Shown: positions 18,976-20,675 of the stretch, in pieces
How positions within the stretch are numbered: the first letter of the stretch is position 1
Layout: every line of letters begins with the position of its first letter
DNA from: Chitinophaga pinensis
GTDB taxonomy: Bacteria > Bacteroidota > Bacteroidia > Chitinophagales > Chitinophagaceae
NCBI GenBank assembly: GCA_945874755.1
Contig: CAMCHR010000002.1
Location: forward strand, 1-64,000
Length of the DNA stretch: 64,000 nt
Reading direction: 5' to 3'
Notes under the pieces: model-generated
Seen by the model: the letters and a program-made list of their open reading frames with translations, nothing else
Told to the model about the DNA's origin: nothing
The model's database searches: none
Made by a program: the position numbers and the translations under genes

Positions 18976-19896
18976 CTATTCAGATTTATCTAATTTAATT
19001 TTAGTAAACACCTGTAAGTGCGGTAGGGCAAGCACTGCAATGCCTATAAATAAAAGCGGCATGACTTCTTTGATACTCCATGCTTCTAATGAAAAATAAA
19101 TAAATATAATAATGCCAGTCCACGCTACAACTGCATAGGGTATGGCTTTGGTGAGTAATTTTTTCCATCCAAGGAAACTGTTTTCCATTTCAAATTCTTG
19201 CCTTATTTTATCAAAAGATAAAATAGAATGCCATAGTCCAAAATAAAAACTAAAACATAGCCAAAGTGGCAATAGCATATTTAAAATAGTTAAGCAGCCA
19301 ATTTGCATGACTGCAAAAAATAATTGCTTGGTGTCTGAAAAAAAATATTTATGGGCAAAGAACAAAATGATATGAATCCCTACAAGCGTAGCCTGAGAAA
19401 TGGGTAATGCGATATTTGCATAATGGATATACTCGTTTGCCTGCATTTTGGATTGTCCTAATAATACAAATACATCAATTGCTGTATGGATATTTTTACT
19501 GAGTAGAAACAAAATCCAGCTAAGCCCTAAAATACTATAGCATAATTTATGAATTCCGTTATAGCTCTTCCCCAACCAGTCTATTTCCCCAAAATGGAAT
19601 GCTGTTAATCCAATGAATATGAGGATGGCGATGGTTGGCAAAAAATACCAAACCAAACCATAGACCAACATATTCAAAAGGTATTTGAATAAAAAGAGAT
19701 AGCCGTGTTTTTTATCGGCTCCATTATAAAGTCTTTGATCTATATAAAAATCTAATGCCCCGTGGGGGATGCCCAATGTAAATAAGGTAACAAATAAAAC
19801 CCCTAATTGCTGGTTCGTTGATAATGGAAAATAGGCATGTAATAAGGCTAAACCGAATCCGATGACCAAAAGTATTTGTCTGAGCTTTATCTGCAT
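18976..19896 (-). CDS. blh: Brp/Blh family beta-carotene 15,15'-dioxygenase (retinal synthesis)
   Basis: Polytopic; GIPHGALDFYIDQRL, TAFHFGEIDW, FGLWHSILSFDKI, ALPHLQVF His motifs; directly downstream of the rhodopsin gene. Start placed at 19896 because 19929 falls inside a terminator hairpin. Confidence 0.9.
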   Translation of the reverse strand: MQIKLRQILLVIGFGLALLHAYFPLSTNQQLGVLFVTLFTLGIPHGALDFYIDQRLYNGADKKHGYLFLFKYLLNMLVYGLVWYFLPTIAILIFIGLTAFHFGEIDWLGKSYNGIHKLCYSILGLSWILFLLSKNIHTAIDVFVLLGQSKMQANEYIHYANIALPISQATLVGIHIILFFAHKYFFSDTKQLFFAVMQIGCLTILNMLLPLWLCFSFYFGLWHSILSFDKIRQEFEMENSFLGWKKLLTKAIPYAVVAWTGIIIFIYFSLEAWSIKEVMPLLFIGIAVLALPHLQVFTKIKLDKSE

Positions 19897-19907: not shown

Positions 19908-19936
19908 AAAAAAAGGGGCGAGTTTGCACTCGCCCC
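19908..19936 (-). terminator. Intrinsic terminator/attenuator between rhodopsin and blh
   Basis: Minus strand GGGGCGAGT-GCAA-ACTCGCCCC (9-bp perfect stem, 4-nt loop) followed by T7. Confidence 0.85.
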
Positions 19937-19952
19937 TTAAAGATAGTATGAA

Positions 19953-20675
19953 TTAAGCAGCTTTTCTGCTCAATGCATATATAACAAGACCGAATCCAAT
20001 TTTATTTACAGCATCACCGATGTTGTAAATAATATCCATATTCAAGCCAATATTTGCAAATCCTGCATACCATTGTCCTTCAGCTGTTCCGATTAAATAT
20101 CCTAGAGGATAGATAGCCCAACCAACTAAAATGAACCAACCTAATGCTTTGTTTGCAGATGCAACAGCAGTACCAGCACTTGTAGCTAATTTCTTAACAT
20201 CGCCTAACCATACTTCATACACGATGTAGAAGTAAGCAAGCGCACTAATTGTACCAAACACTGTAGCACTTCCTAATCCAGCTTCACCTACGTAACCTGT
20301 TACCAGCATTACAACAGAAGCTAAAATCATTTTCCATAATAAACCTGTTGTACCACCAGCTTTTTTTGTGATCAAGTAGAACTCAACACACATCAAAGGC
20401 ACAGTTAACAACCAATCTACGTAACGGAAGAAGGTTGGAGAATCTTGCGTTTCTGCATAATAGCTACGCATGTAGTAGTAGTGAACTGCAGCAATAAAAG
20501 TGATCAACCCCGATACTAATACCGAAGTGCGCCACTCTTGACTTGTGTTGCTCAATTCAAAAAAGAAAAAAACCGAAGCGGCCATCATAGCCATTGTGCC
20601 TACAAAGAAAGTAAACGAAACGTAGTCCGTTTTTGCAATCACTGTAGCAGCATCTAGTAAAAATAAAGAATCCAT
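19953..20675 (-). CDS. Proton-pumping rhodopsin (proteorhodopsin-like, DTE motif)
   Basis: 7 TM; RYVDWLLTVPLMCVEFYL (D87/T91/M95/E98), AAVHYYYMRSYY (H65), NIGDAVNKIGFGLVIY (Schiff-base K225). Confidence 0.97.
   Translation of the reverse strand: MDSLFLLDAATVIAKTDYVSFTFFVGTMAMMAASVFFFFELSNTSQEWRTSVLVSGLITFIAAVHYYYMRSYYAETQDSPTFFRYVDWLLTVPLMCVEFYLITKKAGGTTGLLWKMILASVVMLVTGYVGEAGLGSATVFGTISALAYFYIVYEVWLGDVKKLATSAGTAVASANKALGWFILVGWAIYPLGYLIGTAEGQWYAGFANIGLNMDIIYNIGDAVNKIGFGLVIYALSRKAA

Follow-up and report, generated by a model that had tools for sequence, protein, structure and literature searches.

The window, by which we mean the whole 64,000-nucleotide stretch of DNA that was analysed, carries a rhodopsin gene on the minus strand (19953..20675). 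The gene raises the question of what kind of pump it encodes, whether that pump holds a carotenoid beside its retinal, and how the retinal is supplied. The original prediction had proposed a green-absorbing DTE proton pump that may bind a hydroxylated carotenoid antenna, and had singled out the glycine at its fenestration as notable. The 240-residue open reading frame matches the Pfam family Bac_rhodopsin (PF01036) with an E value of 9.8e-40, and we annotate it as a predicted DTE-type proton pump of the proteorhodopsin family, similar to NM-R1.

Retinal site and family placement of the rhodopsin

We aligned the window protein using MAFFT with seven solved references (GPR, NM-R1, XR, Kin4B8, GR, psXR, and TR). 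All of the functional residues named in the original prediction fall at the positions claimed for them. D87 occupies the position of the Schiff-base counterion and proton acceptor (codon 20415..20417, minus strand as for every codon given here, with coordinates computed from the coding sequence), followed by T91 (20403..20405) and by E98 at the proton donor position (20382..20384), which together form the DTE set. M95 (20391..20393) lies at the spectral tuning position equivalent to GPR 105, and K225 (20001..20003) is the retinal Schiff-base lysine. G141 (20253..20255) aligns with the fenestration glycine of XR (G156), GR, Kin4B8 (G153; PMC12308411), psXR, TR, and NM-R1; GPR carries Phe at this position. 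A second alignment, taken from the PDB search with NM-R1 (chain 9jov), places G141 in the identical register.

These alignments support a green-type (Met) DTE proton pump whose fenestration is open, and we infer that the protein is a light-driven proton pump of a freshwater Bacteroidota, of an ordinary type. The photocycle roles of K225, D87, and E98 are taken to be those known for the family. Light would isomerise the retinal on K225, D87 would take up a proton, and E98 would give one back.

The placement of the protein relative to the proteorhodopsin and xanthorhodopsin clades, for which the original prediction had pointed to a tree, is clear. In a phylogeny that included five XR-type references, the window protein lies inside a group that comprises 97 mostly Bacteroidota sequences plus NM-R1 and is separate from the xanthorhodopsins (support 100/100). 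The fenestration glycine and a following serine are common to the window protein, XR, GR, and Kin4B8, and these shared residues favor membership in the xanthorhodopsin family. However, the tree splits the window protein from all five XR-type references, and its sequence identity is 26-29% to XR, GR, and Kin4B8, compared with 62% to NM-R1 and 45% to GPR. The tree rules out membership in the XR/GR/Kin4B8 clade, and we regard a xanthorhodopsin assignment as extremely improbable.

The structural model leads to the same relative. An AlphaFold model built on a 64-sequence alignment reached a mean pLDDT of 83.4, compared with 43.6 for single-sequence input, and its best PDB match is the zeaxanthin-bound NM-R1 structure 9jou (TM 0.88/0.92, 62% identity). 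NM-R1 (PDB 9jou and 9jov) is therefore the closest solved structure by both sequence and fold. The two proteins have in common the DTE residues, the Met tuning residue, the fenestration glycine, and the Tyr and Thr of helix F. They differ in that the window protein has F140 (20256..20258), adjoining the fenestration glycine, in place of Trp, and Ala198 where NM-R1 has Pro. Their hosts also differ, the window coming from a freshwater Chitinophagaceae-type genome and NM-R1 from what we take to be a marine strain. Green proteorhodopsin (7b03) belongs to the same family and carries the DTE residues, but has Phe at the fenestration position and Leu at the tuning position. Kin4B8 (8i2z, 7ytb), a xanthorhodopsin, resembles the window protein in its DTE residues, in Gly153 and Tyr204 (equivalent to G141 and Y193), and in a polar residue (Ser or Thr) at 208. 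It nevertheless belongs to another clade, with 26-27% identity, and has Trp before its glycine where the window protein has Phe.

With respect to conservation, relatives were gathered from the same genus, the same order, and public genomes, giving 97 distinct sequences with the window protein included. The DTE residues, Met95, Gly141, Ser144, Tyr193, Thr197, and Lys225 are invariant in all 97, so the pattern is not due to chance, yet it is not special to the window gene either. Throughout the clade to which the window protein belongs, the fenestration glycine is thus fixed, and the emphasis originally placed on it does not hold. The same glycine had already been published in 2026 for all Bacteroidota proteorhodopsins of one subtree (subtree I; PMC13043013). 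Because it is invariant among these relatives, a glycine at the Gly156 position cannot by itself flag special antenna cases. The one local oddity of the window protein is the residue directly before this glycine: position 140 is Trp in 95 of the 97 sequences, and Phe is found only in the window protein and in a 99%-identical relative (L007).

Probable carotenoid pocket and pigment supply

Several proteins of known behavior bear on the fenestration. KR1 (from Dokdonia eikasta) and EinA29G6, both of the proteorhodopsin family, bind lutein and zeaxanthin (PMC12308411). In Kin4B8, Y204 has been proposed to stabilize the carotenoid, and Thr at the Kin4B8 208 position is also found in KR1 and EinA29G6 (PMC12308411). 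In our alignment the window protein has Gly at XR 156 and, as the equivalent of Kin4B8 Y204, the invariant Y193 (20097..20099; PMC12308411). T197 (20085..20087), the equivalent of Kin4B8 S208 (PMC12308411), is polar and a candidate for interaction with the ring of a 3-hydroxy carotenoid. KR1 and EinA29G6 likewise have Tyr and Thr at the 204 and 208 positions. At the position of Kin4B8 Y209 the window protein has Ala198, in contrast to Pro in the zeaxanthin-binding NM-R1 and to Asp or Glu in KR1 and EinA29G6, the last two having been compared by their published pocket residues rather than by full sequences.

Pigment and retinal supply were traced through the genes of the window and of the genome. 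Contrary to the original prediction, the window is not devoid of carotenoid genes. Directly downstream of the rhodopsin gene, on the same minus strand, lies blh (18976..19896; 306 aa from its likely ATG), which matches TIGR03753 (E 1.6e-39) and PF15461 and encodes a predicted beta-carotene 15,15'-dioxygenase. The Blh enzyme would make retinal from beta-carotene. The two genes adjoin each other both in the window and in close relatives. In a sample of 91 genomes from the genus, counted by hand, blh is present in 59 of 59 genomes with rhodopsin and in 1 of 32 without. This single genome (G017) is the only case in the sample of a blh match without a rhodopsin match.

The genome also holds a crtZ-like hydroxylase gene, for which the original prediction had proposed a search. 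It lies on another contig (G000:C7), where crtI, crtB, the CrtZ-like hydroxylase gene, and crtY stand side by side. The pathway genes were located by family searches, with the exception that CrtZ had no family-model match and was assigned by its four His motifs and by 42% identity to a sequence taken to be that of Pantoea CrtZ. Matches to PF04116 on contigs C5 and C41 were rejected as CrtZ, being larger proteins that are not CrtZ-like in size. Two matches to PF00487 (365 and 353 aa) were rejected as CrtW ketolases on the grounds of size and sequence character. Family searches of this genome, which is 83% complete, found neither a ketolase candidate nor a CruF candidate. Taken together with the crtI-crtB-crtZ-crtY cluster, this makes zeaxanthin the likely hydroxylated carotenoid, although at this level of completeness the absence of other carotenoid genes carries little weight. 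A zeaxanthin route from the genome's own cluster is therefore plausible from its gene content. CrtI also scores above the cut-off for the NCBIfam model of bifunctional phytoene/3,4-desaturase, which suggests that a carotenoid other than zeaxanthin may make up part of the pigment. Across the genus sample, crtZ is found in 58 of 59 genomes with rhodopsin and in 28 of 32 others (hand count). Since it is nearly genus-wide, its co-occurrence with rhodopsin is uninformative as support; the pigment would be available, yet service to the rhodopsin is not implied.

Our main reading, to which we assign a probability of roughly three in four, is that the window protein is an outward light-driven proton pump with retinal made by Blh, and that the opening at Gly141 takes up a 3-hydroxylated carotenoid, most likely zeaxanthin. 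By analogy with close relatives, for which this arrangement has been shown, a hydroxylated carotenoid such as zeaxanthin probably sits beside the retinal. Its ring would occupy the space that G141 opens, close to Y193 and T197, as judged from NM-R1, KR1, EinA29G6, and Kin4B8. Hydroxylated-carotenoid binding, as originally proposed, thus stands as likely, given that NM-R1 was solved with zeaxanthin and that a crtZ-type hydroxylase is encoded in the genome's cluster. Once bound, the carotenoid could either speed the photocycle or hand light energy to the retinal.

A true antenna would require the second of these roles, with the bound hydroxylated carotenoid absorbing blue light and passing the energy to the retinal, as in Kin4B8. 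The Gly, Tyr, and polar Thr of the pocket speak for such a role, as do the lutein and zeaxanthin binders of the proteorhodopsin family. However, carotenoid binding alone does not imply energy transfer, and a binding-only case is documented, in that Kin4B8 binds salinixanthin without energy transfer (PMC12308411). F140 and A198 are, moreover, unlike the residues of the known antenna cases. For marine Bacteroidota, a 2025 paper cited in PMC13043013 and PMC13093654 reportedly describes bound carotenoids, in the words of its title, as photocycle-accelerating pigments. We hold the antenna role to be a tentative proposal, somewhat on the doubtful side. It is also conceivable that retinal works alone in the cell, with the glycine kept as clade inheritance and no carotenoid bound in vivo. 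The glycine is invariant across relatives whatever their gene neighborhood and is also present in the thermophilic rhodopsin 5azd; the crtI-crtB-crtZ-crtY cluster is unlinked to the rhodopsin gene, and crtZ occurs widely in the genus whether or not a rhodopsin is present. On the other hand, the nearest solved relative, NM-R1, does bind zeaxanthin, and an invariant glycine where a bulky residue is possible suggests that it has been kept for a reason, which makes a pump with retinal alone unlikely. With regard to our preferred reading of a bound hydroxylated carotenoid, the replacement by F140 of a near-universal Trp beside the fenestration counts against full confidence, as does Ala198 at the position where KR1 and EinA29G6 have Asp or Glu.

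Earlier work has reported both the glycine of Bacteroidota proteorhodopsins (PMC13043013) and the ability of KR1 and EinA29G6 to bind carotenoids (PMC12308411). With this rhodopsin, a freshwater Chitinophagaceae-type genome that encodes a carotenoid pathway of its own joins the sources of fenestrated Bacteroidota proteorhodopsins, a useful and expected addition.

Terminator-like hairpin between rhodopsin and blh

The less expected part of the locus is a conserved, putative terminator that separates the pump gene from the retinal-making gene. An intrinsic-terminator-like hairpin lies at 19913..19938 on the minus strand, with a perfect 11-pair stem and a loop of 4, followed by a T tract. Its predicted folding energy is -21.3 kcal/mol (z -5.25). 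The GTG at 19929 that opens the blh reading frame sits inside this hairpin, which makes the in-frame ATG at 19896 the more probable start of blh. The resulting length of 306 aa is also that of the blh open frame in several relatives. In the window this ATG follows the hairpin at a distance of only about 16 bases, leaving no space for a normal promoter between the two.

To place these features in a wider context, we scored the regions downstream of rhodopsin in the relatives. By a scoring rule and cut-off of our own devising, set after the first examples had been seen, a terminator-like structure is present within 120 nt in 88 of 99 distinct downstream regions, the relatives not being independent of each other, compared with 0 of 990 dinucleotide shuffles. 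The structure is found in 53 of the 56 distinct relatives in which blh is adjacent to rhodopsin. From species to species the stem sequence varies, and its two arms change in concert. When same-strand junctions of 0-150 nt in these loci are compared, 64 of the 73 that come after rhodopsin carry the structure, in contrast to 8 of 191 other junctions of this kind; among convergent junctions it occurs in 13 of 106.

Judged from its conservation, the hairpin probably stops most transcripts once the pump gene has been copied, giving much pump and little enzyme. Read-through would then yield the small amount of Blh that is made. Extending this to the Bacteroidota as a whole, we lean slightly towards the view that the terminator inside the rhodopsin-(crtY)-blh set is an attenuator and keeps the pump-to-enzyme ratio high, with blh expression in the window dependent on read-through. 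A conserved terminator offers a simple and testable idea for how opsin is balanced against retinal supply. A limited literature search on proteorhodopsin, blh, and terminator returned no description of such a terminator, which does not in itself prove novelty.

The arrangement of the genes varies with distance from the window genome. In more distant Bacteroidota (L061, L063, L069, L093, L100, L103, and others), rhodopsin and blh are often separated by a crtY-like lycopene cyclase gene. Some Flavobacteriaceae (L101, L107, L112, and L114) instead have blh upstream on the opposite strand, in a divergent orientation. These four loci nonetheless have the hairpin downstream of rhodopsin, where it would serve only to end the transcript.
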